From positions 27,509,829 to 27,573,828 of the forward strand of contig OX387187.1 in assembly GCA_947561395.2 (NCBI GenBank): a stretch of 64,000 nucleotides of DNA, read 5' to 3'. The stretch's first letter is position 1, and each line of letters begins with the position of its first letter. Positions 1 through 26,449 of this stretch are shown here, piece after piece. A model generated the notes under the pieces. That model saw nothing but the letters and a program-made list of their open reading frames with translations, searched no databases and was not told the origin of the DNA. A program made the translations under genes and the position numbers. This DNA is from Buxus sempervirens (Eukaryota; Streptophyta; Magnoliopsida; Buxales; Buxaceae).

Positions 1-149
1 CGTAGGGAGTGCTGCCGTTGGCGACCAGGTAGCTGCCGAGTGCCTCCCTTGAATTTGGTTTTAGGATATTGAATTTGAATTTGCACATTTGCATATTTAC
101 ACCTATATAAATGGTAATCTTGTTGCAGAAATGGCTTGAATTTGCATAT
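1..149. repeat. Inner part of left MULE terminal inverted repeat
   Basis: This stretch pairs inversely with 22755-22903 (position i pairs with 22904 minus i). The only mismatches in 144 bases are at 35, 63 and 107, all transitions, about 98% identity. Homology fades after base 144-149, marking the inner edge of the repeat. The outer part lies left of the window. Confidence 0.9.
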
Positions 150-3003
150 TTCACATTGAATTCAAGCAAATTTTTTGCTGGTGTTTTTTTGCACTTTGTT
201 GGATTTGATGGATATTGTCATGAATTCAATGTCCAACATAGCACATGTAGTTCTTCATTTTAGTTCTTTAGCTTATTAATATCTTAAAGCTATTTCTTTG
301 TGGCTTTTCTTGTTGGTGGGATCACTTTTATATTTGTCTATGAACCTAGAAAGAGAATTACTATGATTAAATTCTAAATTTAGTTCCCAGTTCAAACTTT
401 TCAGTCTGATGTCAAAATTCCTATGATATCGCTAAAACAGGTCAAGTAGGTGGGCATTGCATATGTTTTAACTTTTTCTTGAGGTTGAAAGTTGTTTAGT
501 GCATGGATTGAGTACACTAAAATAGTGTTTAAAAAGCTCAGATAGGCCTGATAACTTGTTTCTTTTCTTTCACTTTTTTCATTCCATTTTTTTAGGTTGT
601 GCCTGCCACTTCATGGGCTTTGTAGATATTTCCATCAATGGTTATGGGCTTCTGTGAAAAAAAATTTCCATGATCCAAGCCCCAGACAATATATAATAAT
701 GTTTTTGGCTCTTATTTGGGTGGCTCTCATCTAAGATATACTCTAAAATACCCACTGACCATTTGGTCATCTATATAGTCAAAGATTATTACACAAAAGT
801 ATCACCTTAATTCACCCAACATTTACAGCAGAAGCATTAAGTGGCAAATAGTTGAGATAAATTACTAACTATTTACAGGTCATTACTGAGCCTTTAAAGT
901 AACATAAATATTTCATAGGAACTCAATATGAGAAAGCAACAAATAAATAGAAATGTCATTGGCATGATTGCTAAAGAACAAATATGTTTTAGCCATCACC
1001 TCAGTAGCTGGGGCTTTGCCAGCTTCCACCATCACATCCATGGAGCTGCGATTTCCATTGCCGGTATTCCAATCCTGTGGGAAGGAATTCGAGTAAAGTA
1101 TCCAAGAAAACAAGAAAAGAAATCCTTAGAATAAACCAGTAAAGTGGGGTAACTTTTAAATGAAAGAAACATCCCACGCTGACTTATTTCCGACGATGAA
1201 AAGAAAGAGATTGGTTAATGGAGATTTTTTAACAAAAAAACTTCCAACTGTGATTTCAATTTCACTTGTCACTTTTGACTTGTAAATTTAAAAAGCCCCT
1301 ACAACTCATACTATTATTTTTCAAGAAGAGATCATTTAGAGAAAGAATTTACTAATTAATAGAATCATTAGATATTAATTTTTGATATATTTTAACAGAA
1401 AAAAGGATCGGCTCATGGAGTCTTCTGAAGTACCCAAAAAAAATTAATTTTCCAGGCAACATTTGCAAGTGAGCAAGGAAATGAAGAAATAAAGAAAAGA
1501 AGAATAGGTAAAAAAATTAGACCAAAAAAAAAGAAAGAATGAAATTAGATTTTGCCAATGAAATCAGACATATTCCATGGAAACTCGCATTTTTTAAATA
1601 GGTCTCTAACCTTAAATTTTCAAACAAATTAACCCAAATAAGTAAAGATACAGTAGAACACCTAAAATTAACTACAAAATGAAGATAATCCCTTAAAAAA
1701 ATTTAATACTAAAAATAAGCAATTTTATGATAGTTAATTACTTAAAATTTTTAAGTAAATTCATAAAGTGTCAATCTTTCATTTCAATTCCTGCAGGAAT
1801 GAAGTTCCTCAACTGCTCAGTTGCCGCAAATTTTGATGGGTCTGATTTCATTGGCAAAATCAGACCCATGATAGCCTCCACATAATGGAATTGGGCACCT
1901 GTGTCAACATGAAAATGGTTTAGTGTGCTGGAGTCTTGGAAGAGGTGTAGGCCAAACTCACCTGAGACAAGGAACTCAGGTGAGGAACAGAAGCTTTGAT
2001 GTCTCAGCACTTAACATGAATCCTTGACTGTAGCTAGGATGCATCAGGGATAAGATTGCCAATATGCGCGCCACTCAGCTTATGATGGACTTTCCTGACT
2101 CCATCCCATCACATCAGCCTCTCTACAAATGAAAGTCTGACTCAGAGATCCCCAACTACATTATTGTGAACTAAGCAAGCAACATATTCAAATTATTTCA
2201 ACACATCTGATTTATTGTATACACTATCTCTAGTCAATATCCTGATTATGAAACGTGTAATCAACCAACCACTAGGAACAGGTTACTTGGGACGAGGCAC
2301 TAGTGTCATTGTTGTTGCAGTCAAAATCAAAAGCCAAATGCATAACATTAATGAGAAGATATCCAGTTAAACATAATAAGCCCCCATTAACCTCTACAAC
2401 CACCTTTGTGGGATAGCACCTTTTGCAGATATATTTGTCTTGAAATCAGTCATTCTCTCATAAATATGTACTTAAATACGCACACATTCACACTTATAAT
2501 GGATATCTATGTACTTTAAAGTGGAACTAGATTTTTGTTGACTTTGGTATACATCCTTTGCAATGGTTATATGCCCTAATCATTTTGATTACTCACGATT
2601 CTCCCTACTCCTGGGCATGACATATCTTTCTTCTGGGGATAAAAAATCTGAATGTGCGATGCATTCCATGCTGTTTCAGAGTTTTTCAGCAGGTCCCAAT
2701 AGGACACTGGTTTCGAATACAGGTGTCGAGGTGCCTCTAGGTGGCAACGTGGCTCTAGGTGAATGCATCCTAACTATTGTGAAGTTTAGACCATGGTGTT
2801 AGTCTAAAGCACAACCTTTATTTTTTATTTACAATTTTTTTTAGTCTAAAGTCTTCCCCAACATCTGTCTTCAATTAATTTGAGGGGATTTGAGGGGAAT
2901 TGACTGACATACCTGATCTGTCTATGTATTCTTGTCTTGTGAGTCATATTTATTTTAGTATGTTGTAATATTTCAAATTAGATTTTTTCCATTATATTTT
3001 AAT
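150..3003. other. MULE 5' subterminal region, no gene seen
   Basis: AT-rich DNA between the left terminal repeat and the transposase. I see no coding exon, RNA gene or internal repeat here. It presumably holds the transposase promoter and leader; the last few hundred bases are the likely place for an untranslated exon. Confidence 0.5.
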
Positions 3004-5332
3004 ATGAAGAATTTAATATTTCAATTCGCTGGACAGTGCACAATGTTACGTGAGATTCTATTCTGTTTTTGTCACATTGGAGGACAAGTAATCACGAAGG
3101 AAGATGGGTCAATGGGGTATAGTGGAGGAAGTAGTAAGGGTATTGATCTAAATAGCAACATGAATTATACTGAGGTAGTTGAAGCTGTTTGTCGGTTATT
3201 GAATATATCCCCGGTGAGTGTAAGTATGAAGTACTCAGTCAAGTTTGACAAGAGCGTTCTACTGGCACTCACTGATCAAGATGCGTTATCGTACCTATTT
3301 CGCTACAACGAGGGTTGGACCAACATTTATGTCTATTATGATGAAGGATCATCACAAGAAAGAGACACTTGTCAGAGGTAATTTTCATTAACCGTACATG
3401 GGATTATGTTTCCTCCATATTACATGTAATGATAGTCATATATTTTGTAATTTCAGGACGAGTGTACCATTAAGTGGTCACTCTGTACTTCCGTGCAATG
3501 ACGATGAAGTAGAGGATCGGGAGACTCCGCTTCTTGAAAGTTGCACTGAAGTCAGTAGAGGTCCGCTTGTTTCTAGCCTGTGGCAGGATGCAATTACTGA
3601 GGTCGACCAGATATTTAAGAGCCCTAAGGAGTTTAGAGAAGCAATGTACAAGCATGCCATTGCCAATAGGTTTGAATATATGATGAAAAAAAATTCTCCA
3701 GCATACATTAGTGTCTGTTGTACAGGCACGGATTGTCCTTGGAAGGTAACTGCAAGACGTGTGAGGGATACGAGTTTTATGAGGGTGATGAAGTTTGTGA
3801 AGGAGCATAGACACTCAGCCCAAGAGCAATTGTCTATGAAACCGGTTGTGAGAACGAAGTGGCTTTCGGGTGTGATTGAGAGGACAATTAGGAACACTCC
3901 AAGTTACTTGCCACGACAAATTGGCAAGGACTTCTATCATGATCATGCAATGCCATTGACATATCAGCAATGTTGGAGGAGCAAGGAAAAGGTGAAACAG
4001 AGGATAGATGGTAATGTGGAGGAGTCTTATAAGTTCATTCCATGGATGTGTGAACGGCTACAAGAGACCAATCCTGGCACAGTGGCAAGTTGGGCAGCAA
4101 GTGAAGATGGAAAATTTAAGCAATTGTTTATTGCTTATGGTTGTTCCTTGAGGGGATTTGCGGTCGGTTGCAGACCACTGCTGTTCATTGATGGAAGTCA
4201 TCTCAGCGGGCCATACCAAGGCACGTTGCTTTCTGCTACAGCCCTCGATGCTGATGACAGCATGTTTCCAATTGCCTTTGCAATTGTTAGTGCCGAGAAT
4301 AATGAGGATTGGATATGGTTTCTACAACTTCTTAAGTCATACATAGATGTCAGAGAGGATTTAGTCATTGTAAGTGACAGGAATCAAAGCATTATAACTG
4401 CAGTAAGTGCTACCTTTGGCGCTAGGAACCACTCTCATTGTCTTCGACATCTGAAGGAAAACTTTAGTAAATTCGTTGGATCCTTTCATTTGAGGGAGGG
4501 AAAGAAATTTGCCTTACGGTTACTTGATGATATTGCTTACGCAAGGCTCCCTCGGGACTACAATAAGGCATTGGCTGCCATGCATGAATATGCACCTGAC
4601 CTAGTTGATTGGGTGAGGAGAAATGGGTCCGAACATTGGGCCAATTCATTGTTCCCTATGAAACGGTGGGATAAACTGAATTCAAATTTAGCGGAATCAT
4701 TCAATGCTTGGATGGTGGAAGAAAGGAAATTGCCTGTAATGCGGTTTATTGATGCACATCGAGTGAAGCTGACAGAGCTATTGGTGAGGAAGCGGAGTTG
4801 TAATGACACGTGGGCGTCCAATGTCGGTGGTCGAATTGATGCCAAGATTCAGGAGAATCTCACTAGAGCATTGGGGCTGGGTGTCATTCAATGTGGGCAA
4901 CACGAATACGAAGTTAGAGGTGATGAGATATATATCATGGTGCATTTAACCCGTCGTGAGTGTACGTGCAAACAGTGGCAAATGGTGGGCATACCTTGTG
5001 CACACGCATGTGCCGTCTTGAACTTGGTAAGGCTCAATGTGTATGACTTTGTCGACCTATGCTACCACAAGGCAATGCAAGGGTTGATATACGACGAATT
5101 GATGCATGCTGTGCCAACACATGACTTCCCCATGGTTGAGGACATCGACGTGGTTTCCATAGTAGATTCAAGTGAAACCCCATCTATCTCGTTCCCACCA
5201 AAGACAGCAAGGCGTCCAGGGCGCCCTAAGCAGAAGCGCATTGAATCGCAATTCCAAGACAAGCAACAGGTTCATTGTTCCAGATGCAAGGGTGTTGGAC
5301 ACAACCGAGCAAGTTGCAGAGCTTCAATATAG
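3004..5332 (+). CDS. MuDR-type MULE transposase with PB1-like, DDE, SWIM and zinc-knuckle domains
   Basis: DNA transposase that would cut and rejoin the element ends in the nucleus. Exons 3004-3377 and 3457-5332 join across a GT-AG phase-2 intron, giving 749 codons without a break. Exon 1 holds the PB1-like N-terminal region of plant MULE transposases (GGQVITKEDGSMGYSGG). Exon 2 carries a zinc-binding MuDR DNA-binding region, then the MULE catalytic core: Asp in FIDGSHL (codon at 4190), Asp in VSDRNQ (codon at 4376) and the likely Glu in NLAESFNAW (codon at 4694). Near the C terminus are a SWIM finger (CTCKQW...GIPCAHAC, from 4961) and a CCHC knuckle (CSRCKGVGHNRASC). Start choice is uncertain: the conserved part begins near 3085, so a later ATG or a further upstream exon is possible. 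The gene looks intact. Confidence 0.92.
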
Positions 5333-5792: not shown

Positions 5793-7634
5793 ATGGGTAA
5801 GAACAAGAAGGATGTCGTGTCCGGTAGTTCTTCTACTGGCCCATCGCGTCCTGCCAATGCCTTCCTCATATTCAGGTGATGAAGTATAAACTGATAAAGC
5901 ATTGTTGTTTTACTCTCCAAACCTGAACTAAGTGGATTTCTAATGTTATGCTTACTTCTTACAGGAATGAGTACCTTGAAACAATTCGGAAGAGTAGGTC
6001 TTCCATAAATGTCATGACGGTGAGTTGGTTAAAGTGCTATATATTAGTTGATAATGTTTACAGTGTCAATTGTAATAAATATAGTTGCATCACTATTTTG
6101 TAGATCACGCAGGAGGCACAACGGCTATGGAAATCAATGGATGATGGTGCGAAGCAGAAGTACAAAGATTTATACAATGATAGGCGGACAAAGTGGTTGG
6201 AAGTGGCCTCGACTCCAACTGGAAAAATAAGAGGAAAGGTATAACTTGATTTCTTGAACATTATGAATGTTTTGTATGCAGTTGCGTTATACTAACACAT
6301 GTTTATCTAAGTGTAGGCGTCTCTGGGAACAAGATGCTCCCCAAAGCGATTTGTGCATTTCGTGACTTCGCTTGACGAGGACCAGCGACATGTAGTTGTT
6401 GAGATAGGATTTGGTTCTCTTCTCCAGATGCGCTGTACATCCCTATGTGTGAAGCTTTGCGCCTGGTTAGTAGATCACATCGATGTACATAGTCGTAGTT
6501 TGAGGATTGGTTCCTCGGTTGTCCCCATTACCCCCGCCGCTGTAAGTACCATCTTGGGCCTTAGGAGTGAAGGGCCCAAGGTTGTCATAGATGGTCCCAT
6601 TGAGCAGCTTGCCCAGCTTCGTGCAAGCTTTACTTTTGATAGGCATGGCATAGCACTAAACAATATAGAGTCCAGATTGGCCACTCTAGGTTCCGGCCAT
6701 GCCTTTCAACAGGCATTTGTACTATTTCTTGTGGGATGTTTGTTATGCCCGGGTTCGAACCCACACGTGAAGCTTCATTTTCTGCATGCAATAGCTAATA
6801 TTAGTATGGTTGGACAGTACAATTGGGGTGCTTTTGTACTTGATGTGTTGTTTAATGAAATTGTGAAATATCGAGAGAAAAAAAAAACCAACATTCGTGG
6901 ATGCCTCCTATTTTTACAGGTATGTTCGTCTCTAATTTGTTTTTAGTTGTTTGGTTGTATTGGTTCAAGGCGACAACTATATGCTGAAAACACCATAACT
7001 TCCCATATTTTCTTAATGTTTCAGCTTTTCTACTATGAAGTTGTACGTTTTGGTGATATTGAATCAAGTCGTCCAACGCCACGTCTGGGGTGGTGGGACG
7101 ACGATCATGTGAAGGCACGGGAGAAGGCTGAAAAATCAACTGGCGGCTATGGCAATGGGGAGGTAAAACATCATTTTCTATGCCCCGTCATATTCTACAT
7201 GGTCTATTGTGGATGGGTTATTAATATAGTGTAGTCGATGCAGGTGGTGGCACTCACGGTGCGTGCTGAGGAAGGAGATAGAGATGTTGATGAAGGACCT
7301 ATTCTAGGGATTGATCCGGTAAGACTTGTCACGCCCTACGTTGGTCATCGGCGTTGTTGAAATGTTGTACAATGTTCTAAATTATGAATACTTTGTTGTT
7401 AGGCATCCCAACAAGCGTTAGATCGCATGCGTGTATCGTTGCGCATGATGCAAGACGACTATAAGATGGCTATCGCTTATGTATCCCAAATGGGTAGGCA
7501 AGATGGTATGTTCCGCTTCCTCACCATGTGCTTATTGTTCTTGTCATTCAAAATTGGTTTTGTTTCGTCTTTTTTCTTTATAGTTACTTAAGTCAATGTT
7601 TGTGTCTGTGAATGCAGGTCCAGGTCCAAAATGA
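5793..7634 (+). CDS. HMG-box protein fused to plant-mobile-domain-like (Ulp1-associated) region, MULE cargo
   Basis: Eight exons fit with correct phases: 5793-5875, 5965-6019, 6104-6238, 6317-6919, 7025-7162, 7244-7318, 7403-7505, 7618-7634. All introns are GT-AG, and the total is 402 codons plus TGA with no internal stop. Exons 1-3 encode an HMG box starting SRPANAFLIFRNEYL and running through QRLWKSMDDGAKQKYKDLY, a fold that bends or binds DNA. Exons 4-5 encode a plant-mobile-domain-like region (VPITPAAVSTILGLRSEG; FLVGCLLCPGSNPHVKLHFL; RGCLLFLQLFYYEVVRF), the part that precedes the C48 peptidase in Ulp1-like transposon proteins. Exons 6-7 are a short charged, coil-prone tail. A DNA-binding accessory role in transposition or host evasion is inference. 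Intactness over eight exons suggests recent selection. Confidence 0.85.
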
Positions 7635-8204
7635 GGAAGAAGACTGGCTTGGTGAAATCTCCATCAAGTTATCATTTGGGAGTAAAGGCTGCAGGTAGCA
7701 TGGTGCTCCCAAGTGAATGTTTCGTATACTATTATATTTTTGTTTTTTTTCCCCCTTTCCTACATCATAATACCAATGAGCAAGTTTGTTTGGACATTTG
7801 TAATTCTTTCTTTCAGTTGCTCAATATGTTGAAGTTTATTTTAATCATATGCTTCTTGTACCATGTTTGTGCATAATGAAGGATTATATGGTTTCAGACA
7901 TCTCAATTTGAACCCAGGAGGCTCAAGAATGTAATTATTATTTGCTTTAAAAGAAGTGGCATCATTGTCCAATAAGCTTGTAAATAATATGAAATTTCTT
8001 TTACTTCTTGGTATATTACCCTCTAATTCTATTGGAAGTCATGTTACATAAGGTGAATCTAGATAAGAGCAGTATGCTAGGAAATGATGTTGGGATTTGG
8101 TCGTTTCTTGGGTAGGGGGTGAGTGCAGGGGAGACACAGTACCAAACTCAAGACAGGGGAGACTTCTGTTGCACAGTGAAGGTTAATTTGTCTAGGGGAG
8201 ACAC
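7635..8204. other. Cargo-region spacer, no gene seen
   Basis: Non-coding DNA after the HMG-box gene. Two copies of a short motif (GGGGAGACACAGTACCAA) at about 8130 and 8196 flank the entry to the hydrolase fragment and may mark a local duplication made during capture. Confidence 0.35.
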
Positions 8205-8413
8205 AGTACCAAGAACTAGGGGTATACTTGGTGTCTATTGACAGACCAGGATGTGGGGAGAGTGATCCAAATCCTAAAGGAACAGTGAAGAGTACAGCTT
8301 TGGATATAGAAGAACTTGCTGATCAGTTAGAACTAGGTTCCAAATTTTATTTAATTGGGTTTTCAATGGGAGGGCAAGTGATGTGGAGCTGCCTTAAGTA
8401 TATTCCTCACATG
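8205..8413 (+). pseudogene. Captured exon of an alpha/beta hydrolase-fold gene
   Basis: One exon encodes a piece of a plant alpha/beta hydrolase: YLVSIDRPGCGESDPNPK, a helical stretch ending LADQLELGSKFYLIGFSMGG, then WSCLKYIPH. GFSMGG is the nucleophile elbow with its serine, so this is the part around the oxyanion hole and nucleophile. The Asp and His of the triad lie in exons that are absent. The open frame leads into intron-like sequence with a GT at the 3' edge, so genomic DNA rather than mRNA was picked up. It sits inside the MULE, as expected for Pack-MULE-style capture, and is not functional alone. Confidence 0.8.
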
Positions 8414-9012
8414 TATTGTGTTCCAAATTTTTTATTCTCCTTTCCACCGATATATAGCATAGATATTTCTCTCAATTTCTTATTTTAATTTGTCTCAAGT
8501 GATATATTTGGGCTACTGAAATTAGTTTTTGTGGAAATATACGCTAGCTAGATCTCATGTATGTACACACACACACGGACACACATACATGTATAAGTTT
8601 TTTCATTTATTAATGTTTTATCGATAAAATTACAAATTTACCTTTACTTCTTATCTATGAAAGACAAAAATAGTCTTTGGAAGTGAATAGAATAGGATGG
8701 ATAAGTTAGAAAACTGAGAAAAATAAGGTGAATGAGCAGATCCAAGAGTATTTATATGTTGCCTAAATTTTAGACTAGAGAAAGGATAGGTGAAGATGGT
8801 TTGAACATATAAAGCAAAAAGGCTTGAATGGATTCAGTCATTAAGGGTTTTGATTCTTATAATTTGATTGAAAGATATGGCTTTTGGCATGTTAGGACTG
8901 AGTAGTAAAGTTCGTGGACCCAGCTAATTGAGATAAGGAGTTTGCTGTTATTATTGTTGTTGCTTTATGGTAGGAGTCCTTTCCTCAGTACCTCATCACA
9001 TTTCAACTTCAG

Positions 9013-9087
9013 GTTTTTGAGGTGGCTCCTTCTCTGCACATGGTGGAGCTCCGGAAGACAGGAGGGGACACATTGGAGTTTCACAAG
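9013..9087 (+). pseudogene. Captured exon of a CBL-interacting protein kinase (CIPK), C-terminal part
   Basis: A 75-base exon preceded by a clear acceptor (TTCAACTTCAG) reads VFEVAPSLHMVELRKTGGD then TLEFHK. This is the highly conserved C-terminal segment of CIPK/SnRK3 kinases after the NAF and PPI region. The exon edges match the usual CIPK exon. The expected donor after FHK now reads GCATGT, so it is probably decayed. No kinase domain is nearby. As with the hydrolase piece, intron sequence came along, so capture was at DNA level. Confidence 0.8.
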
Positions 9088-9305
9088 GCATGTTTTTAAT
9101 TCCTAAAATTATTTTAAGCTTTCTTTGCATGCCCTTGTTGATATGAGTTTTGGTTCTTGAAAGACTAGGTATGTTAGTTGACTAATAGTAGGTATTACCC
9201 AACTCTCTCCCTCCCTCCCTTCCCCTTTCTGTTTTTGTGTATCAATCGAAATCAGATTTCTGACACGCTTTTGCATATGCAAATCATAACATAAACAAAG
9301 CTATG

Positions 9306-9680
9306 GCTCCAGTACTGCATTGTTCCCTATGAGTGATTACGATCAAATCCCATTTACACCTGTGGATTACATAATGTACATAGTGGTCCATGAAAGTAGA
9401 ACGCTTATCGGCTTATGGAGTTCAATGCTAAAAGAGATGCCTAACATGAGGGAGGCCGGAAGCACAGCTCATGGTTTGGTTGGCAGTCGGTTTGAATTAT
9501 ATTTGATGGGGAGAAGATGAAATAAATTTATTGCGAGGTATCTAAAGGTGCCGTTATTCCTAGCCATGTTTTTCCTGCTCTAAGGAGATGGAATTCTCCA
9601 TTTGTTGCATCGTGTGAAGATGACTGCCTCAATTATGAAAGGGACACCTTTACAGCAGAGGGTGTTTTTCTTTGTCCTTT
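9306..9680 (+). other. Coding-like stretch of unknown origin, probable captured gene piece
   Basis: An open stretch from about 9306 to 9517 reads SDYDQIPFTPVDYIMYIV and GLWSSMLKEMPNMREAG. A second short one at about 9546-9650 reads AVIPSHVFPALRRWNSPF. Both have protein-like composition and lie just after the hydrolase and CIPK fragments, so they may be exons from another captured gene. I do not recognise the family and cannot show splice sites joining them. Confidence 0.3.
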
Positions 9681-11018
9681 TTTCCTCTTTTTTGAGGTTG
9701 AGATTCTGTAACTTTATGAGGAGACAGTTATGATTCTTGTGAGTAACAGCATTTGATTTACTTTGAATGTTTTACCTTGCTTTTAAAAACAGTTGGTCGT
9801 CGTACCACATGGTGGGAACTGCAATTATAATAAATGGTGGATTTCTTCAGTCATATGGAATCTGGGATGTCTCTCATATTTATTGAGCCAGTGCATTAAA
9901 AGTGCACCTAACGGCTACATTTTGTCAAGCTGCCACAACAAGATAACATTTAAAGCAACTACTGTATCACAATAAGTGCTTTGCATTTGGTCATCTGTAG
10001 CATTTATAGATTAATTTTTTGTGGGTTTTGGTTTTTGTTATTGTTATATTATGTTATCTTCCCAAGGGTTTTTTTGACTTTTTTGTTGTGTTTTTTACTC
10101 TTTTTGCTCAATCCTTGTGGGTACATTGTACTTTTTCCCCCTTTTAATATTTAGGTTTCTGAAACATTCAAATGTACACATTTGTCGTAAGTGGAGTTTT
10201 CCAGTCAACAGCTATGGATTTCTGCAATAAGAAAATCTACAGAGTTGTGTGATTTAAATGCCTGTATCTAGTTGTGTGATTTAAATGCCTGTATCTAGCT
10301 GTATCTAGATACAGGATTCAAATGCCTGTATCTAGCTGTGTGATTGCAGAAGGTTACTTCACAGTCTTTGGAGCCATGGTCCGGCCAATGAATTGATTAC
10401 AGAATTTATCTAGCTGTCTGAGTCATTAGATAAACCCAGAAACATTGCTGAAGAAGATAAATCCTTTTGTTTGTTGTTTGGACATTTGTGTTATGTATTG
10501 AGATTGTGAGATCCTAAGATAGTAAAAGAAAGGGCGTTTCTTTGTTTTTTTTTTTTTTTGGGTGGTACCTGCTGCATTTCTGAATGTGAGCTTATACAGG
10601 GGTAGCGTTTTCACAGTCTTTGGGACAGGCTGCGAAGAACACTGGCTATGTGAAATACTACATGTTCTGTTGCCACTTCTTGCTTCATGTGCTCTAGTTT
10701 TTGCTTCCTAAATGAAGAGTGATTGAGGCCTCCATTTTCACTTTTTCCTTTATTCCTATTTTCTAGGCACTATATGATGTAAGTTCTTTTTCATTAGACC
10801 TTTAGTGAATGTGAACATTGTATCAAACATAATGTTCTTTTTTCATGAAAATGGAAATAAAACTACTTTTAGGTTCTCATACATGGTCTTTAGTTACATA
10901 TTACATACTATTTACTAGGAACTTGTCTGACCAAATAAAACTACATTTAGTAGCACTTTTTAACCAAAACTCAACGATAACCACACCAAACATGCATCTC
11001 CATCACCGGTAAACCAAT
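9681..11018. other. Cargo-region spacer, no gene seen
   Basis: AT-rich non-coding DNA between the captured fragments and the GRF gene. Apart from the short tandem repeat near 10244 I find no feature. Confidence 0.4.
10244..10340 (+). repeat. 27 bp tandem repeat, about three decayed units
   Basis: Two exact adjacent copies of a 27-base unit starting GTTGTGTGATTTAAATGCC begin at 10244 and 10271. A rearranged third copy with an embedded CTAGATACAG palindrome follows to about 10340. No coding or regulatory role is evident. Confidence 0.8.
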
Positions 11019-11659
11019 TCATTCGTCCAGTTTAACTTTGTCCATGTCGTGAATCAACTCATGGTATATGTCGGACATCCTTCTCGCATGGTCACGCTCC
11101 TCCTGCAATAGCCGTCGTTTTAGTTCCCATGCCCTTGGTTGTCTTTGTTCAACCAGGAGAAGAAATTGCAGCTTTGTTCGCCCTGGAAATACAATGACAT
11201 GAAGAGCAATTAGGAAGTCCCTATTTTGCAAAATATCTCATGTGGGAGGAACGTATTCGAGTGCTATACAACTCCACACATACTTCAAAAGGACATCGGT
11301 AAAATCTTCTCCCTTTGTTCGTTGGAGTTTTTGCGGTTAACACACGGCATGGTCCCCTCCCACATTCACACAGAAATAACTCATCGCACCAAACAAAATA
11401 CCCACAGCCATTCCCACCATTGCCCTATAAGAAATAATGCATTTAATTTAGACAGTCTTATCATAGTTGAATGGCCAGATTCGTAAAAATGCATACTTAC
11501 GGACGATGGACAAGTGAAAAAATAACGCCCTGGATTACGTGAGGTGTGGGAGAGTTTTCTTTTAAGCATCCCTTTCCCGCATGGACATGGGACTCGAGCG
11601 TGGGGATCGGTAGCCTTTGGAGACACTTCCATTCTTCCTTCGCACAAAGTGTAGCACAT
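11019..11659 (-). CDS. Tandem GRF-type zinc-finger protein, MULE cargo
   Basis: Three minus-strand exons fit with GT-AG introns, all phase 0: 11659-11501, 11424-11284, and from 11182 down. Exon 1 starts at ATG 11659 and opens the first GRF finger (CPCGKG, then NPGRYFFTCPSS). Exon 2 closes it (NGCGYFVWCDE) and opens a second (CECGRG, then NKGRRFYRCPFE). Exon 3 closes that (SCNFFSWLN). GRF fingers bind single-stranded nucleic acid in characterised proteins. In the spliced frame a stop follows at 11122-11120 (about 120 residues). A second frame of exon 3 encodes a coil-like charged tail (LKRRLLQEERDHARRMS) ending at 11019, so a small frameshift or alternative splicing is likely near 11130-11150. 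The promoter side abuts the minisatellite. Confidence 0.7.
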
Positions 11660-11756
11660 AATTGATTCACTTGAAACACTTGTATTTATAAACAAGTCGG
11701 AAGGCAGGCCCACGTGAAACACGTTGGTTGTGTTAGGAGATGCGAGCGCCAAAAAT

Positions 11757-12975
11757 ATGAGGGGACTTGACCTATTTACTAAGGACTCGACCGTACTTGA
11801 CGTACGACTCAAGCACACCAACATAGGACTCGAGGTAAGGATAGGCGAGACCACGGGACGCGAGATATTTTACATAGGACTCAAGCAAATTTACATGGGA
11901 CTTGAGATATTTTACATGGCACCCGAGCTAAGTATGCACCTGTATCGAGCAATTTTACATAGGACTCGAGCAAGTTTACATGGGACTCGAGCTAAGTATA
12001 CGTGGGACTCGAGCAATTTTTGATGGGACTCGAGTTAACAATAGCCGGGACCACGGGACTCGAGCTATATTACATGGGACTCGAGCGAAGTATACGTGGG
12101 ACTCGAACATTTTTATATGGGACTCATGCTATTTTACATGAGATCGAGCTAAGTATAGGTGGGACTCGAACAATTTTATATGGGACTCGAGCTAAGTATA
12201 CGTAGGACTCGAGCTAAGTATACGTGGGACTCGAGCAATTTTACATGGGACTCGAGCTACGTATACGTGGGACTCGAGCAATTTTACATGGGACTCGAGC
12301 TACGTATACGTGGGACTCGAGCAATTTTACATGGGACTCGCGCTACGTCTACGTGGGACTCGAGCAATTTTACATGGGACTTGAGTTAACGATAGTCGGG
12401 ACCATGGGACTCGAGCTATATTACATGGGACTCGAGCGAAGTATACGTGGGACTCGAACATTTTTATATGGGACTCGTGCTATTTTACATGAGATCGAGC
12501 TAAGTATAGGTGGGACTCGAACAATTTTACATGGGACTCGAGCTAAGTATACGTGGGACTCGAGCAATTTTACATGGGACTCGAGCTACGTATACGTGGG
12601 ACTCAAGCAATTTTACATGGGACTCGAGTTAACGATAGTCGGGACCACGGGACTTGACCTATATTACATGAGACTCGCGCTAAGTATACGTGGGACTCGA
12701 ACATTTTTACACGGGACTTGTGTTATTTTACATGAGACTCGAGCTAAGTATACGTAAGACTCAAGCAATTTTACATGGGACTCGAGCTAAGTATACGTGG
12801 GACTCGAGCAATTTTACATGGGACTCGAGTTAAGGATAGGCGGGACGAGGGGACTCGAACTATTTTACATGGGACTCAAGCATTTTTACATAGGACTAAA
12901 GAGACGTGGGACTCGAGCTAAGGATACGTGGGATTCGAGCTAAGGATCTGTTGGACACGAGCTAGTTTTGAGATC
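11757..12975 (+). repeat. GGGACTCGAG minisatellite with higher-order structure
   Basis: Several dozen units of 21-22 bases alternate between TGGGACTCGAGCAATTTTAC-type and TGGGACTCGAGCTAAGTATA-type copies, so the effective unit is about 43 bases. Larger blocks headed by GAGTTAACRATAG recur at about 12034, 12385 and 12628 (spacing about 351 and 243), showing block duplication. Every intact unit has a CTCGAG core. Long open frames across the array come only from the repeats; the 43-base period rotates the frame, so I do not call a gene. It lies directly upstream of the GRF gene. Confidence 0.92.
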
Positions 12976-13226
12976 ATTGCTGACTTTGGATAAACATGTA
13001 ATCGCAAATATATTATATGCAAAGATATTCAGGGATATGGACCCCTACTAATACAATACCCTCTCTTGATACCAATATATTATATGCAAAGATAATAATA
13101 AAATATCAACAATTATAACTATAAAGATCTGATAATAATTATCACATGGTTTTGATCAGTAGACAACCTTAAAGTTATGCCAATCGGACTTTACATTCAT
13201 CCCTTCTTCTCCCCCATTTCTGTAAT

Positions 13227-16188
13227 TGTGAGACACGGGAAAAATCACCGGAATGATCATCCCTCCGTCAACACATGGGGCTCATCTTAAAAGTTTGGGA
13301 GAGTCGCCACCATTCAGGTTAAGGGTGTGAATGGACACCAAAAGATTAAAAATCATTAAAAGGAGTTAAAAGACAACTTCTAGGGTAAAAATAACCCTAC
13401 TTAAAAATCAAATCCAGAGATGGGTAAGGGGATTAGATTATGAACGGGGGAAGGTGTTAGGCACCCCCATTCATCCACACGAAGTGGTTGCCAAGTGTAT
13501 GTTCATGCAAAAAAAAAAGAAATAAGAAAGCTTGCTAAAAATCATGAAAAACCTTGAAAAAGGTCAAATATATGATATTTTCACGTGAAGATCCAAATGG
13601 ATTCTGGATCCTCTCTCATGTCAATATCATTTCTGGAATATCAACAAAGATGGAAATCCAAAGTAAAGGTTGCACAAAACCAAGTTGAGGCAAATCCGGG
13701 AAATTTGGTAAAAAGTATGCCACTTGCCTTGAAATCAATCAAATCCAATTTTAACTTAAATCAAACCAAATCCATTTGAAAGATTAGGGTAAACAATAGT
13801 CTCATGCAAAATTTCAATTAATTCCGGTTGAAAACCTAGGAGTTATGCTCCTTGAAAGTTGTTGCTGGGGATATTTAAAAGTAATGAGTGGGCAACTTTG
13901 AAAAATCACACAGAAAAATCCACTCCATAAAAATCCATGAAATTTGGTGTGATTGAAGTCTGTATGGCCATCTTTCAAAAGAAACTAGCCTCATACAAAA
14001 ATTCCTTCAGATGTGCCTTGGGTGGTCTCCCGAACAGGCCCCGAAGATCACAAATTTACCCAGAAAAGTACTAATGAACAGTTCTGAGTAAATCTGTTAC
14101 CAATAATTCAAATGGAGTCAAAAAATTATGAAATCAACTGGATTTGAAAATAGACTCATAAAGGAGGGCCCAAAAACAAAAATCACTCGAATCAGATTTA
14201 AAACAAACACATGGCGCTCCGTCGAAGTGACAAGTTCTGTATTTGAACCTGAACTGTCCACTCAGCTTCGACAGAGAGGTGTCAAAAATCTGCTTGATAG
14301 AAATTAATGAAATTTGGTGGACATAAACTAGACAACCTCACCTTTCCCATGGTTCTGGAATCGCTCCAAAATTCATCTGGACAATGAAGTTATGAGCGTC
14401 CGAAGTAGGGGTACAGTTGCTGTCAAGCTAAGCCATTTGGAGAAAACCAACTCGAAATTGTGATAAAGTGTGTGTGATTCGTGCAATATGAATCCAAAAC
14501 CTTTAAAAATCATTCAAAAACATTCCAGAATTGATTGATGTCATTTATTTGAGATTTATCACAATGAATGTAATAAATCCCCAAATGTGAGCCTATCCTG
14601 CCAAAATAGTGCCATGTATGTGCAAGTGTGAAAAATCATGCAAGATCAATATAACAATATAGCATGCATACATCTTCATCAAAATAAGGTTCTAAATCAA
14701 CCTAGGGTTCCGTTCCATTATCATTTTCCCTTTGTTCTCTCTCCCCGTTAAACACGGTTCTTCAAGATAATCAAAGGGTACTTTGAATATGGAAGGGTTT
14801 TCAAAGAATCACAAGGCTCATAGCATGCATTCAAATTAATAAAAATGGGATCTAGAACATCCTAGGGTTCCATTCCATTATCGTTTCCCCTTTGTTCTCT
14901 CTCCCCGTTAAACACGGTTCTTCAAGATAATCAAGGGGTACTTTGAATATGGAACGGTTTACAAATAATCAAAAGGCTTATACAAAAAGGTTCTAGTACT
15001 AGGGTCAATCCCCAGTCTCGTTTCTCCTAGATCCCGCCTTCACGTTTTACGGCTAGGGGGAGTCTCGAGATACTTTGAGCCGGGGAAGGATTTTCACACA
15101 CATAGAATGGCCTTATTCTACAGAAAGGTAGAAGAAGAGATCTAGATCTAGGAATGTAAAAACAAAATTTAAAGAGAGGTTTGAGGCTTACCTGGATTCT
15201 GGAAGCACTTCCGCAGCGGTTTCCCTCTTCTCTTGGAGTTCTTCTTGGCAAGAATTATTGGCAAGAGAGTTTGTGGCCATTTGCTTAAGGAGGAGCCTCC
15301 TATTTATAGGCAAAGGCTAGGGTTAGGGTTGGTGAGAATGGTAGACACAACATAATGTCTATAGCCCACCAACCTTAACCCTAAGGCTATTTCCGAGATT
15401 TCCACTCATTTAACGAAGGATATGATGGTAAAATGTGAAAACTCTCGGAAAACCCTAATTTTGAGCAAAACCTGTGTATCCGGCATATCAGGCCGGATAC
15501 ATAAGTACCTTAATATATCCGGCCTATGATGCCGGATACACTGAGGTCCACTCGTATCCGGCATGTTCCATCGGATACAAAGAAAAATACTTGTATCCGG
15601 CCTGAGTTGCCGGATACAAGGAAAAAAGCTTTTTTTCCGAATTTTAACACAGGCAATACTTATTTACATGTAATATCGTTTAAGTAAATGTCCTCGTACT
15701 TTTTTAATCTCCATTTACTTAAGATATTACATGTAAATAAGCAAACACCCCCCATTTGAATCCATTAAAAATAGTTCCAGACCCAAATTCCAAGTGAATA
15801 AAAAGTCAACTTTTCAGTTTAAGGCAAAATTCTGATTTTTCAGGTCTGGAAAAAAGGTTCAATATGTTAAAACCAAGGTATTCGTCAAGATTTAAAATCT
15901 CAAAAAATTCTTTTATGCAATAACATGGCTAAAAACCTGATTACCGGGAAAAATTATCTTGAAATCTGGCTTTAAAAAATATTTCATTTTCTGGGGTCAA
16001 AAGTCAACAAAATTCAATCGGAAAAAGTTTGACTTTGCACAAAAGATTGAATTCGGGCCTTTTCCTTTTCCACTTTGGATTCAAATGGGTTAAGTATCTC
16101 AAACCCAATGCAAAGAATTGAAAATTCCAATAAAATATTTCTCTCGTTCAAGATTTATCAAAAATCGTGCAATTTTGGGGTGTCTACA
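13227..16188 (-). mobile_element. Solo LTR (LTR family 1), probably Ty3/gypsy, nested in the MULE
   Basis: On the minus strand it begins TGTAGACACCCC and ends TGTCTCACA, flanked by a perfect 5 bp duplication GTAAT (13222-13226 and 16189-16193), 2962 bp. No internal region or second LTR is seen, so it is a solo LTR. A TATAAATA box lies at 15308-15301 (minus). Upstream in the element's direction are a four-copy palindrome array (15478-15620) and a long hairpin (15658-15748). The transcribed part holds a 160 bp tandem duplication (starts 14701 and 14861). The same family occurs at 33835-36711 and, in part, at 27650-28640. The perfect duplication suggests modest age. Confidence 0.87.
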
Positions 16189-16667
16189 GTAATCCCCGTC
16201 CATTTCGTAGTCCACATTCTCATGAACGTTTAAGCATCTCAATTACCCGTACTGGATAGATCCACGCTTGCTTGCATACACAGAAAAATGTTGTAAGCAG
16301 ACAAAGAGACATCATGAATGACACGTAAAAGAAGGTCGAAGCTAGCATCAGGATCATTGGTGCTAAGACAAATGACTTAAAGTGAAAATAGACTTACAAT
16401 AGGGATTTTTCCTTAAGCATCTCAATTAGAACGGGTACTTGATTACGTTTGCAGGGTGGAGCAATAGGTATGCAAACAATTCCTGCCGAAAGTGTCCAAT
16501 ATTTTCCTATTACAATTTAAATGAATCACTTGCCATAAAAAATTGTGTAAGTCTTAACCACATCAAGTTGCATAGGCAAATATATACTTGCATGCCCAAA
16601 CCTAGTCGACAATTGATGCCCATCCCAATATTTCATGTACTTCATTACAAATACACCACAATCGTCA

Positions 16668-17520
16668 CTACACAACAAATGGAAAAGATCAAGAGAAGGT
16701 AGACATGGCAAATAACTGGAAAATACAGGTGTTATTGGGGGTAAGGTAAAGCTATAATTCAATGTAGTAATTATTCATGATCGAACAATAATGATTTCAT
16801 GCTTTTACCCATTGTATTTAATGCATGTAATATTATTGCAACAATAAGGATACTTTTAATTTCATTTCAAGATTTATTCTTCAGTAAAAATCACCATTAT
16901 TCAGATGATAATACCCAATGAATCTAGCTAAAATAATTTTAATAATTTGAATTACTAATAAAATCCAAATAAATTAGACTCCTCCAATACTTATCTTGCT
17001 AAAGAATTTTAATAATTGGAATTATTTATATCATAATACCCAATGATATACCTATAATATTTGAGTTTCAATCTCAACGACTAAAAGAATGTAGCACCCC
17101 GGAACCAGATCGACCCATATCAGGTTTATATTGGCTCCTGGGCGCTAGCTTAGGGCCCAAACTAATGAAAACGAACTTCAGAACTATCCAAACACACAAA
17201 AATAACCTCCTAAATTTTTTTCAGAAAAACGGCTATATAACGTCTGTACATACGAGTATGGGCTAAGCCCTCAAACACAAATGATCACCTGATAAACACA
17301 GTTTATACATCCACTCAAAAAAACTAAACCATCCAAATATACAACAAAAATAATCTCACTAAGTTTACATCCTCTCTCCATCTTTCCATCTACATCCTCT
17401 TTGAGCTCCACAGGTTGCTTATTTGGAAATAACCAAATAAGCAACCTAAGGGCATTATCCAATATCTATATAATGCTCATGTAACTTACAGTAACATATG
17501 AGTGATAATTGGGAACTTAC
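16668..17520 (-). other. Intron of the Ulp1-like gene
   Basis: This 853-base AT-rich intron separates the exon ending VPCQSS from the exon starting DDCGVFV. A stretch beginning GTAGCACCCCGGAACC at about 17090 looks like a foreign insertion, perhaps LTR-derived, but I cannot find both ends. Confidence 0.4.
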
Positions 17521-17830
17521 GAACTACTTTGACAGGGCACGGACACAGGCACCAGTGGCCACTCCTGCACTCTCTTGTCACAGCCACGTTTAAGCTCCTC
17601 AAAGACTTTTGCAAAAAACCTTGTCTGCAATGAAAATTGAACCATTCAATATCAAATTATATAATACATTGAAACTATATAGTTCTTTACATACCAATTT
17701 CGTTGATACAGCACGATAATCACCAGGCCGACTCTTCGGTACCGAATCTAGCACTTCGACCCGCTGTGCCTTCATGTTCAAAAGAACCACGAACCAATGG
17801 GTCCTCCTCAAGATCGGTAGGAAAACCTAT

Positions 17831-20227
17831 TGTAGACACCTGATTTTTGCACCCCAAAAATAAAGAAAAATCAAAAGTCAAACTTTCGGTCAAACCCTGA
17901 CGGGGTCAAAATTTGACTTTTTGATTCAAGACAATTTGGCCATCAAACTTCATATCATTGGAAAGAGCATTTCGACACGATTCCAACGCAGCTGAATTTG
18001 CTGGAATCAGAGTCCAGATGAGAAAGTTATGAGCCGGTCAAACTTTTGGGGAGCGAAAAGTTGACTTTTTGCTCGTTCCCGATTCAGCTGCCAAACTTGA
18101 TCCCAATGGATAGGTGGTTCCGAGCCGGTTCCAACGACACTAAGTTTGTTGAAATCGGACACCGGACGAAGAAGTTATGAGCAGTTGAAGTTTCAGAAAA
18201 ACTGCCCATGTGGCAAAAACGCAGCAAAAATGGACTAAACCAATAAAATAAATAAGATAAAAGTATTTTAAATAAAGAGAATCTCATTTTCTAATAAAAT
18301 AATCGGAAAAATCGGATAAAAATCCTGCAAAAAATCAAATTGAATAAAGGTTTGAAATCCACACATTTTTAAAACGTGCGGGACCGTATTTACATTACGG
18401 GCAGGGCACACCGGTATTTAAAGTACGGGCACGCTTCTAGAAGGACAACACGCGTCGCTGTACGGCGAGACACGCGTCCCGTACGGCCGAATCTGCGATA
18501 ATTGCAAATATTCGTTTTTCGCCCGTACTTGAATTACGGGCAAGGCACGCCCGTACTTCAAGTACGGGCAAGGCATGCCCGTAGTTCAAATACGGGCACG
18601 GGAATTTTGCCTATAAATAGAGAGGCCACCCCCCTTCATTTAAACAAGCCATCCTCCCCTGGCCTCTCCCCTCTCTCTCCCGGAGCTCCCCACGGCTGAA
18701 TGCTGCCCAACCACCACCACCCTTAATCCATACTTCTTTTATCCCCAAACTACCCCTAGGTTCATAGAGCCATGCCAAAATCATGCAGAAAATCCTCTTT
18801 AGTTTAACTTTCAAGCTCATCTCCTAACCAAACCTTGTCTAACAACTTCCAAAAATTTGAGAGGACGCGGAAGCGCTGCTCAATTCACCGGAGAATTCAT
18901 CATTAACTCAAAACCACATTGTAAGTATGTTGGATTTTATAAAAATCTTCATTTCTTTTTTGCTTCTAAGTTTCTTTTAAACACCTTCTTATGTTACTAA
19001 CTTGATTGTTATTTTTGAGTATCATGAGGATATGGTATTATGGAATGGACCATTGCAAGGAAGAAAGAAAAGAAGTGCCTAAAGAACACTTCAATAAATT
19101 TAAGTAAATAACTTTTTTTTAGTTCCTAATGTGACAAGACTGAACCCTTCTTGAAGACAAATGGGTTCCCTATGATTTCCCATTTCCCTTCTTCACAAAA
19201 TGATCATGGACAATCCAGAAGGCTGTCAGCACTCATAGTGAAAAAGAAGAAAGAAGAATGAAGGCCTTTTAGGCCAAACGAAGCCAATGAAGTATCTGGA
19301 AGAATCTGAAAGCCCAGTTGAAGCTGCAGAAACACTAAAGGAAGCCGCCGGAATGATCCCAGAAAGAATCGGCAGCAAACATGCAAATTGAGTTGTGCCC
19401 GTAAACTCAGGCCGGTCCAGCCTGGACCGTGTCTGATTCACGGACAAGGCTGGACCGGAATCCATTCACGGGCAGGCGAGACCGTAGAGGAAACACGGGC
19501 GAAGTGTATAAGTGATGAAAAATTGTAATTCCTTGGTTCGGTTGGACCTGATCCGGTCTAAGCCGGCTTGAACCGTTCCCTTAAGCCCATTTTTGGACTT
19601 TGGGCCTAGATAGGCCCATTAAAATCCCTTCGGCCCAATAGTGGGGCCCACTTCTGACCGGCCCAAACCCGGCCCGTTTTTCATAAAACGGGCCCAGGCC
19701 ATTGGACTTTGGCTAATGGGCCCATTCCAAGCCCACTAAGCCCAGACTAAAATTGTAAATATATAAAATTTAATAAAATAACCAAATGGGTTACCCAATA
19801 ACCCAACTGGGCCCACGGCCCAACCCTGGCAACCCACGGGTCTTCCAACGGGACCCGGGTCCGACCCATTTCACTTAGATAAATAAAAAAGATAAAATCA
19901 AAATAAAAGGGGACCCACACCTTCAGAGGGTCCCACCCGACCAAATAAAGCAGCATGCTGGCCTAGGAAAAGGGTGAACTTGACTCAGAAACCAGGGAGA
20001 CCCGAGGGACCCGTCAAACCGACGGGGCGGACCGGGGTGCCTTAGGGCTTCCCCGGACGTAACCGAGGACTTAGCTAGATCTCTAATAAGCAGCAGACCA
20101 GACTTAGACCCGGTTAGGGCAAAACCGTGTCTGCCTGCACTCTCAGGCAGTGGCGACTCCGAATGTCCCGAGGCACGCACGAAAGGTGCGCCCGGTGTGC
20201 GATCTAGGCCAGGTTTAGGTGCGCACA
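17831..20227 (+). mobile_element. Solo LTR (LTR family 2), probably Ty3/gypsy, at an Ulp1 splice acceptor
   Basis: It runs TGTAGACACCTG to GTGCGCACA, 2397 bp, flanked by a perfect 5 bp duplication CCTAT (17826-17830 and 20228-20232). A TATAAATA box lies at 18612-18619. Just upstream is an array of inverted CCCGTACTT/AAGTACGGG arms (about 18377-18605). A second, different inverted set (GGTCCAGCCT/GGCTGGACC type) lies at about 19395-19490. It ends with a GGCGACTCC-type motif also present in family 1, but body sequence differs. No internal region is present. The intact duplication points to a fairly recent insertion, later than the MULE gene it lies in. Confidence 0.87.
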
Positions 20228-21597
20228 CCTATCAAATGACAATACAAGGTGTACAAGGCGTTAATAATTATGTAAATGAGAGTAATAAAATATTCGAAGT
20301 TTATCATACCATATGACATCGAAGCAAACTACATCCTACAACATCTCGTGAAAATTTACTTCGTACAGCATCTTCTACAGTCAATGTTCCTTTTAGGATT
20401 TCAGCCTGTAAATCACAAGTCAATATATTAGTCCGCTGTAGTACTCCATATGCATTGATAATTAATTATTGTAAGCGTCCTAACATACAATCCTGTATAC
20501 GTACAGATGTGTAGGGTGTAATATAATGACGACGGATAGTTGACGAATGTTCCCACGTAGATTTGACACGGGCAAGCACATACATGTGCATAACCTATTC
20601 CACAATCACCTTAGTGAGAAAACTAATCCAAGTACCATTGTAACCTAAAACAAATGATACACTTTTCAATACAAAAAACTGACCAGGTCGCTAACCCTTC
20701 GTCGTGGAAAAAGACCAAGGAGCTCGAATCGAGTCGCATAGCAATCACCGAAATCAACAAGTTTTTCCCTGCATGCGTCAATTCCACTTATAAGGCCAAA
20801 AAAAAACAATAACCAACTATGAACACAATATTGAATGGTGTAAATCTCTTAATTGCAGTCAATCACAGAAGATATATACTTACATCGGCGACCCCCCTGT
20901 CATGGCATACATCCACGCTTTTGTCTCTCGTTCAGTTAATGGGGGGAATCTATGCGTCTTGACAAAGGGTGACCTCAATTTATGTACAAGGTGCTTTACT
21001 CATTTCCCTCTACCTCTGGGACAAGATTGCATCGTACTTGGACCCTCAGATGTAGTTGCGGGTTCATCGTGTGGCACACTTCCAGCAAAAGGAGGCAATG
21101 AAAACTCTGGGTGTGCATCAAAAGTGCCATCGCCATCTAGAGGTGGTGGAGGAGGCACATCATCCGTAGAAGGCCAGTCGGACTCAGCATCTAGAGGTGG
21201 TGGATGTGGCTGGGAGTGGCTTAAAGAGGCAGCAAAGTCGGTACAATGCCGTGTGAAGTCACGGGCAAAGCCGATCATACGAACAATGTGACTCTGTAAT
21301 ACCTATGATAATGAAAACATATTGATGAAAGGAGACGTATAGAAGAATGTGTAAAATAAAAGAAATAATGCAATGGCTTGCCTTACCGGATCTATATCTG
21401 TCGGCACGTGAGTCATATCATCTGCCCGCTCCTGATCCCATGCAAATTCCATGCCTAAGGCACATAACATTCACACACAAAATATGATTTTAAACTTTAA
21501 TACAAGATGCCACCTTACCTCATTCCTGTTTAAACTCAAAAGAACATATCTCCGTCTATAATAGGCTAGCTTCAAGAAAGCAGGACAAAACCGTTAA

Positions 21598-22754: not shown

Positions 22755-23690
22755 ATATTCAAATTCAAGCCATTTCTGCAACAAGATTACCATTTACATA
22801 GGTGTAAATATGCAAATGTGCAAATTCAAATTCAATATCCCAAAACCAAATTCAAGGGAGGCACTCGGTAGCTACCTGGTCGCCAACGGCAGCACTCCCT
22901 ACGGTGACGAACAGCAACTTCGATGAGACAGCAAGGTTGCCCGCGGCAACACTCCACACCGCAACGAAAACCAACTTCGATGAAACAGCAGGGTCGTCGA
23001 CGGGCAACAATCCCACGACGACAAACTTCAACCGCGGTGGCTCTCCAACGACCAATACCTCAATGTCTGCAAACAGAGAAAGGGGTTTCGATTACAGAGG
23101 ATTAATTAACGATGGAGAGGGAAACAATGCGCGAAACAAATGGAGGAGGAGAGGGTTTCGTCCAGGTAGCGAAGGGGTTTTTGGAGAACAATAGATCAAT
23201 GGGGAAGGAGAGTGGGGGAAAGTTGGTCGGCGTTCGTCGGCCTTCAAGAAGACGAAAATCTGAGTGGGGAAACCACTCGCATTCGCCGAGGAATAGAGGA
23301 ATGGGGTTTGACCGTGAGGGTTTCGGTTTTTTGGAGAAGAAGATGACAATGGGGAAGGAAGGAGAATGGGGTCGGGGTTCGTCGGCCTTGGAGACGAGGC
23401 AAATTTTTTCCTCCGGAAACAAGGCGCGTTCGCCGGCGAAGAGAGTCAGCGTTCGTTCGTCAGCGAAGAGAGTCGAGGGTTCGCACAGGAGACGAGAGGA
23501 GAGGAGAGAACGACGGCACGTGTTCCCCCCCTTATATTCAAGCGCATTTTGAGCATTGCAAATATGCCAAACGTGCAATGACCCTTTTCTGACATTAAAT
23601 CTCAAAAGTGGCATGTTTTTGAAATTAAGCATCTTTATGGCATGTTTTTGTAATAATGGCTGTAAAGTAGCCATTTTTCGTAATTTTCCC
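22755..23690. repeat. Right MULE terminal inverted repeat
   Basis: The inner 149 bases mirror window bases 1-149. From there the sequence becomes purine-rich and GC-richer (about 23050-23520) and ends with short motifs repeated near the tip (GGCATGTTTTTG and relatives). The last bases read TAATTTTCCC, that is GGGAAAATTA from the outside, which fits MULE ends. Open frames of 60-220 codons on both strands are compositional and lack family features. The outer end at 23690 is inferred from terminus shape. Confidence 0.75.
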
Positions 23691-26355: not shown

Positions 26356-26449
26356 AGACTCCCTCGGAAAAGAACTGACTGCTATATATGTCTATCCAAC
26401 TGGGTCAATTGAGAAATATTTGTGTTGGGGCCACCAATAGCAATGGATC
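26356..26449. promoter_or_regulatory. Upstream region of the DUF4220 gene
   Basis: Immediate 5' side of the minus-strand gene. A TATATATAGG-type stretch at about 26318-26332 lies just inside the longest frame, which supports the downstream Met as the true start. The actual start of transcription cannot be fixed here. Confidence 0.3.

Follow-up and report, generated by a model that had tools for sequence, protein, structure and literature searches.

An HMG box joined to a plant mobile domain in a probable accessory gene of a long Mutator-like element of Buxus sempervirens

The plant mobile domain (PMD), first described by Babu et al. 2006 as credited in PMC5418596, is listed for the VANDAL, MDR, MUDRAVI2 and MUDR groups of plant Mutator-like elements (MULEs) (PMC6446971, Table 1). 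PMDs are also carried by ordinary plant genes (PMC5418596), and the host PMD proteins MAIN and MAIL1 work in the silencing of transposable elements (TEs) (PMC5418596, PMC7156037). TE-encoded PMDs have been proposed to counter silencing (PMC6446971, PMC5418596), and a similar suggestion is made in PMC8616336. The anti-silencing role of MULE-captured PMDs is the authors' speculation, and the role of MULE-encoded PMDs is left in print as an open question (PMC5418596).

A comparison for an anti-silencing protein comes from the VANDAL elements. VANC21 recognises short motifs arranged in tandem within the non-coding DNA of its own TE, and VANC proteins, which bind such motif arrays, cause loss of methylation (PMC5735166, PMC10398659). 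The Ulp1 gene is already known as MULE cargo, with an Ulp1 peptidase gene inside Kaonashi/KIU and related elements of grapevine, melon and rice (PMC13317346). A different kind of precedent is offered by the host protein HMGB1, which helps Sleeping Beauty synapsis and RAG1/2 (PMC7827188).

Here we describe a gene in which an HMG box precedes a PMD. It lies, probably as an accessory gene, inside a large MULE in a 64-kb window, the whole stretch of B. sempervirens DNA that was analysed. What appears to be new is the joining of the HMG box to the PMD; the PMD and Ulp1 are known already as MULE cargo. The first-pass annotation knew of no named family with this domain order, and no HMG box-PMD fusion was found in the literature searched, which was covered in part and excluded the original description of the PMD (Babu et al. 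2006). The string 'hmg' has 0 occurrences in PMC6446971, PMC5418596 and PMC7156037. The known fusion partners of the PMD are a phosphatase, a protease or a kinase, with HMG not named among them in PMC7156037. The lone paper that matched both 'plant mobile domain' and 'HMG' uses HMG as a journal code. Other candidate reports of the fusion were also rejected: an Ectocarpus paper has the HMG-box merely in a reference title, an Oxytricha paper treats HMG-box proteins and MULE transposases as two distinct families in ciliates, one further paper that mentions the HMG box contains no 'mutator-like element', PMC8409312 does not contain 'plant mobile', and 'mobile domain' in PMC3457860 is part of a reference title.

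The element is delimited by long terminal inverted repeats (TIRs). The inner part of the left TIR (1-149, plus strand) is identical to the inverted 22755-22903 at 145 of 149 positions without a gap, and the window edge cuts off the remainder. The right TIR (22755-23690, minus strand) was matched over 22755-22903 and its outer end near 23690 was placed by eye. Thus the element occupies >22.9 kb within the window, and with a right TIR reaching ~23690 the whole would be somewhat over 24 kb. The main frame of the transposase is open from stop to stop for 646 aa (3392-5332, plus strand) and matches MULE (PF10551, E 1e-17), DBD_Tnp_Mut (E 1.7e-15) and SWIM (E 4.4e-7). An open frame at 2992-3381 on the same strand, read from the sequence and with no Pfam domain above cut-off, is a probable upstream transposase exon. 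The HMG-PMD gene lies head-to-tail with the transposase in the left arm, 460 nt downstream on the plus strand. Its placement by the first-pass annotation inside a transposon with a Ulp1 gene is borne out by the MULE transposase, the TIRs and a Peptidase_C48 domain. Just outside the element, a 760-aa open frame on the minus strand (24109-26391) matches DUF4220 (E 1.1e-87) and DUF594 (E 2.7e-17).

Other genes and gene fragments are found between the TIRs. A GRF-type zinc-finger gene (11022-11869, minus strand) with unsettled exon borders has two GRF stretches, one at 11227-11424 (PF06839, E 5.7e-11) and one at 11384-11869 that falls slightly below the cut-off (PF06839, E 1.8e-5). A charged tail follows the zinc-finger stretches, and the far end of the gene overlaps a tandem array. 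This is probably a further accessory gene of the MULE. The 3' half of a Ulp1 protease gene (17826-17695, 17624-17521 and 16667-16526, within 16526-17826, minus strand) covers positions 86-181 of the 217 in the Peptidase_C48 profile (E 8.7e-11). It contains His-Trp, Asp, Gln and Asp-Cys-Gly motifs, which are usual for the family. An LTR-like insertion with TG...CA ends (17831-20227), flanked on both sides by a CCTAT 5-bp duplication, sits at the start of this half, and open stretches seen by eye beyond it (20300-21470, minus strand, no domain called) are possible 5' exons. The Ulp1 gene had been called decayed. It appears interrupted, but its 3' half is still recognised as Peptidase_C48, and with such an insertion at the start of that half the gene seems to have been broken by the insertion rather than merely worn. 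By eye, a further stretch at ~13200-16190 opens on the minus strand with TGTAGACACC, just as the LTR-like insertion does, and is perhaps another nested retroelement. Downstream of the HMG-PMD gene there is an alpha/beta-hydrolase fragment (8180-8488, plus strand; PF12697, E 8.4e-7), possibly captured host sequence. The same may hold for a weak KA1-like piece at 8974-9096 (E 0.019, below cut-off), which presumably resembles the C-terminus of CIPK.

The HMG-PMD gene (5793-7634, plus strand) was annotated at first pass as an intact frame of eight exons and 402 codons with standard splice sites, and this structure was recovered. The exons (5793-5875, 5965-6019, 6104-6238, 6317-6919, 7025-7162, 7244-7318, 7403-7505 and 7618-7634) together make up 1209 nt, which is 402 codons and a stop without an internal stop. 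All seven introns are GT-AG and measure 78-112 nt; their T content is 41%, against 27% in the exons. Simulated retention of any of the seven gives an in-frame stop within the retained stretch. With codon usage learned from the transposase, the proposed frame is the best of the three on the same strand in each of three blocks (exons 1-3, exon 4 and exons 5-8). None of 20,000 mononucleotide-shuffled versions of the exon sequence stayed open across 402 codons, which is a weak null because the exons had been picked for openness. The strongest argument against a chance frame is that two Pfam domains exceed their cut-offs. A structure predicted for exon 4 alone, without an alignment, had a mean pLDDT of 43.7 and was set aside as evidence.

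Both domains named in the first-pass annotation, an HMG box ahead of a PMD-like region, were detected with the HMG_box and PMD models that it had suggested for a search. The HMG box (residues 17-77, exons 1-3, 5841-6196, plus strand) matches PF00505 with E 2.1e-11 and 44.5 bits against a curated Pfam cut-off of 25.4, and a second HMG model barely exceeds its own (22.6 against 22.4 bits). The HMG_box match spans two splice junctions, at residues 28 and 46/47. Among the PDB entries the HMGB3 box is matched with E 2.3e-6. Among the printed alignments to boxes of known structure, those to HMGB3 and BBX are gapless over both junctions, while that to the HMGB1 A box carries two inserted residues. 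The two introns within the HMG box presumably match the intron sites of host plant HMGB genes, a likeness that we dropped as an argument. Also dropped was an Asn beside the first wedge residue (NAFLIF, as in BBX) as proof of sequence specificity, a meaning that we presume for this position; the hydrophobic second wedge argues the opposite. The PMD (residues 162-322, exons 4-5, 6527-7114, plus strand) matches PF10536 with E 2.5e-12 and 47.1 bits against a cut-off of 34.9. This match spans intron 4; exon 4 by itself scores 39.7 bits, and the spliced protein reaches 47.1. No family was assigned to the protein by NCBIfam, which is built for proteins of bacteria and archaea. The PMD family occurred in 0 of 14 control genomes, a count that is uninformative.

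Set beside the described systems, the locus shares parts with each and is the same as none. PMD-carrying plant MULEs (PMC6446971; PMD-C captures, PMC5418596) have in common with it a SWIM-finger MULE transposase and a PMD inside the element. Here the PMD has an HMG box in front of it and belongs to its own gene in sense orientation, in contrast to the PMD fused to transposase in PMC5418596 and the PMD that is often antisense in PMC6446971. As in the Ulp1-bearing MULEs, a Peptidase_C48 domain lies within the element (on the minus strand), but the Ulp1 gene appears interrupted and stands apart from the HMG-PMD gene, and the KIU elements are described as non-TIR (PMC13317346) whereas the TIRs here are long. 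With MAIN, MAIL1 and MAIL3 the gene shares the PMD family; those are host proteins and this gene sits in a transposon. The VANDAL elements likewise have a MULE accessory gene and tandem motifs within the element. The HMG-PMD protein differs from VANC in having an HMG box and in that DUF1985 is only a sub-threshold echo (15.9 and 17.3 bits, with the cut-off at 35.1). DUF287 is not among the matches listed at E up to 10.

The tandem array is CpG-rich and consists of a GGGACTCGAGC motif with periods of ~21-22 and 43 nt (11750-12970; best TRF score 703). The TRF rows fall between 11856 and 12964 (1.1 kb), and the sites of GACTCGAG are concentrated there, with 25 of the 27 in the 64-kb window inside these limits and none on the opposite strand of the window. 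The remaining pair (11591 and 11827) sits just ahead of the array, in or beside the GRF gene. Repeat-borne open frames run across the array and no gene was called there. The 1221 nt of 11750-12970 hold 82 CpG, with an observed to expected ratio (O/E) of 1.33 against 0.55 window-wide; the O/E is 0.25 in the flank at 7635-11000 and 1.09 in the right TIR. When segments of 1220 nt are compared at 100-nt steps, those with the most CpG all overlap the array, and the best elsewhere, with 70 CpG, is at the right TIR. The CpGs retained by the array fit a hypomethylated or unmethylated stretch, and a recently amplified CpG-bearing unit would look alike.

Most likely the product of the gene is a TE-encoded accessory protein of chromatin or DNA architecture. 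Within this class we favour an anti-silencing role over that of a transposition cofactor. Of the three roles put forward in the first-pass annotation (a DNA-bending factor, an analogue of MURB-type accessory proteins and an anti-silencing factor), the last is the one best backed by circumstantial evidence. Our main reading, to which we give a probability of roughly 0.4, is that the HMG-PMD protein may be an anti-silencing factor of VANC type in its working and different in its parts, with the HMG box on the element DNA, the PMD facing chromatin and the array as docking site. The HMG box would keep the protein bound to the DNA of its element. The PMD would face chromatin and either counter or mimic the host PMD pathway of MAIN/MAIL type, so that the element stays expressed. 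The CpG-rich array would be the likely docking site, in the way that tandem short motifs are for VANC, and is a candidate target in that sense.

This reading is supported because an HMG box and a PMD above cut-off lie in one frame, because exon 4 needs an upstream exon (see below), and because TIRs, transposase, GRF and Ulp1 share one element. It draws further support from the suggestion of PMD anti-silencing in PMC5418596 and PMC8616336 together with the MULE PMDs listed in PMC6446971, and from the binding of tandem motifs by VANC21 considered with the clustered, one-strand GACTCGAG sites of a CpG-rich array. Against it, HMG boxes are frequently without strong sequence specificity, DUF1985 is sub-threshold and only one copy of the gene was seen. 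The array, moreover, adjoins the GRF gene and not the HMG-PMD gene. It may serve as the GRF promoter or be no more than a young satellite, and a satellite by itself would account for one-strand motifs and abundant CpGs. CpG enrichment is also seen in the right TIR.

The transposition cofactor is the rival that survives best, and we regard it as possible but unlikely. A transposon-encoded DNA-bending protein would use its HMG box to bend the long TIRs for synapsis, and its PMD would contact the transposase or chromatin. The HMG box exceeds its cut-off, the gene is head-to-tail with the transposase, and the element and its TIRs are long. HMGB1 with Sleeping Beauty synapsis and RAG1/2 is a precedent for an HMG box beside a DNA-transposon recombinase (PMC7827188). 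HMGB-type cofactors of this kind are host proteins, unlike the transposon-borne HMG-PMD protein, and are already on hand for the element; bending the TIRs also leaves the PMD without a role, though its host relatives act in silencing. These cofactors are not known to carry a PMD.

It is rather doubtful, and slightly less likely than the cofactor role, that the gene is a recent capture in which an HMG exon set was fused to the PMD of the element, with no maintained function and a frame still open because the element is young. The inner TIR arms differ at 4 of 149 positions (2.7%), or ~1.35% change per arm, at which only ~16 substitutions are expected in 1209 nt if the gene has been neutral since insertion. 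The open frame is therefore weak evidence of selection or function. MULEs take up host pieces, and the abhydrolase and KA1-like pieces lie nearby. Yet the gene has kept its seven splice junctions, its two domains and its codon bias, and the HMG-PMD join is in frame at a clean intron. Copies of the gene were sought for comparison. There is no second copy in the 64-kb window, and none of the relatives sought elsewhere was confirmed: 10 pattern-matching stretches for HMG-PMD and no stretch for the transposase in viral contigs, 6 and 1 in non-plant genome contigs, and no HMG-PMD relative in plasmids. A match of one 34-residue stretch in 3 Campylobacter phage records (E 0.3) was taken as chance. 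These collections are not of plant genomes, so the misses carry no information on plants.

That the HMG and PMD halves are two genes, a 92-residue HMG protein stopping in intron 3 and a separate PMD gene, is very unlikely. The halves are joined at intron 3 (6238/6317), no profile among the Pfam matches of the spliced protein bridges it, and translation that continues from exon 3 into the intron ends after a single codon, which could give a short HMG protein. Such an HMG-only product is possible through retention of intron 3. Against separate genes, the frame of exon 4 is shut just upstream by the TAG of the acceptor itself, and the earliest Met that the exon codes is residue 129, 37 residues into its frame, so the full PMD-side region requires an upstream exon. 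An intron of 78 nt, with GT and AG sites present, also leaves scant room for the end of one gene and the start of another. Weakest of all, and highly improbable, is a host MAIN-like gene simply neighbouring a MULE; PMDs do occur in ordinary plant genes (PMC5418596), but this one sits between matching inverted repeats and between the transposase and Ulp1 genes.

The anti-silencing reading can be taken further, to a form that we think quite unlikely: a transposon-made factor whose HMG box is fused to a PMD that was either taken from the host silencing machinery or is ancestral to it, and which coats the array and keeps it unmethylated. If true, the HMG-PMD protein would be a second counterpart of the VANC system, one built independently. 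Its PMD is linked to a DNA-binding module of known kind and so makes TE-encoded PMDs more accessible to study, since the HMG box predicts direct contact with DNA, and the CpG-rich array offers a specific candidate target for the protein.
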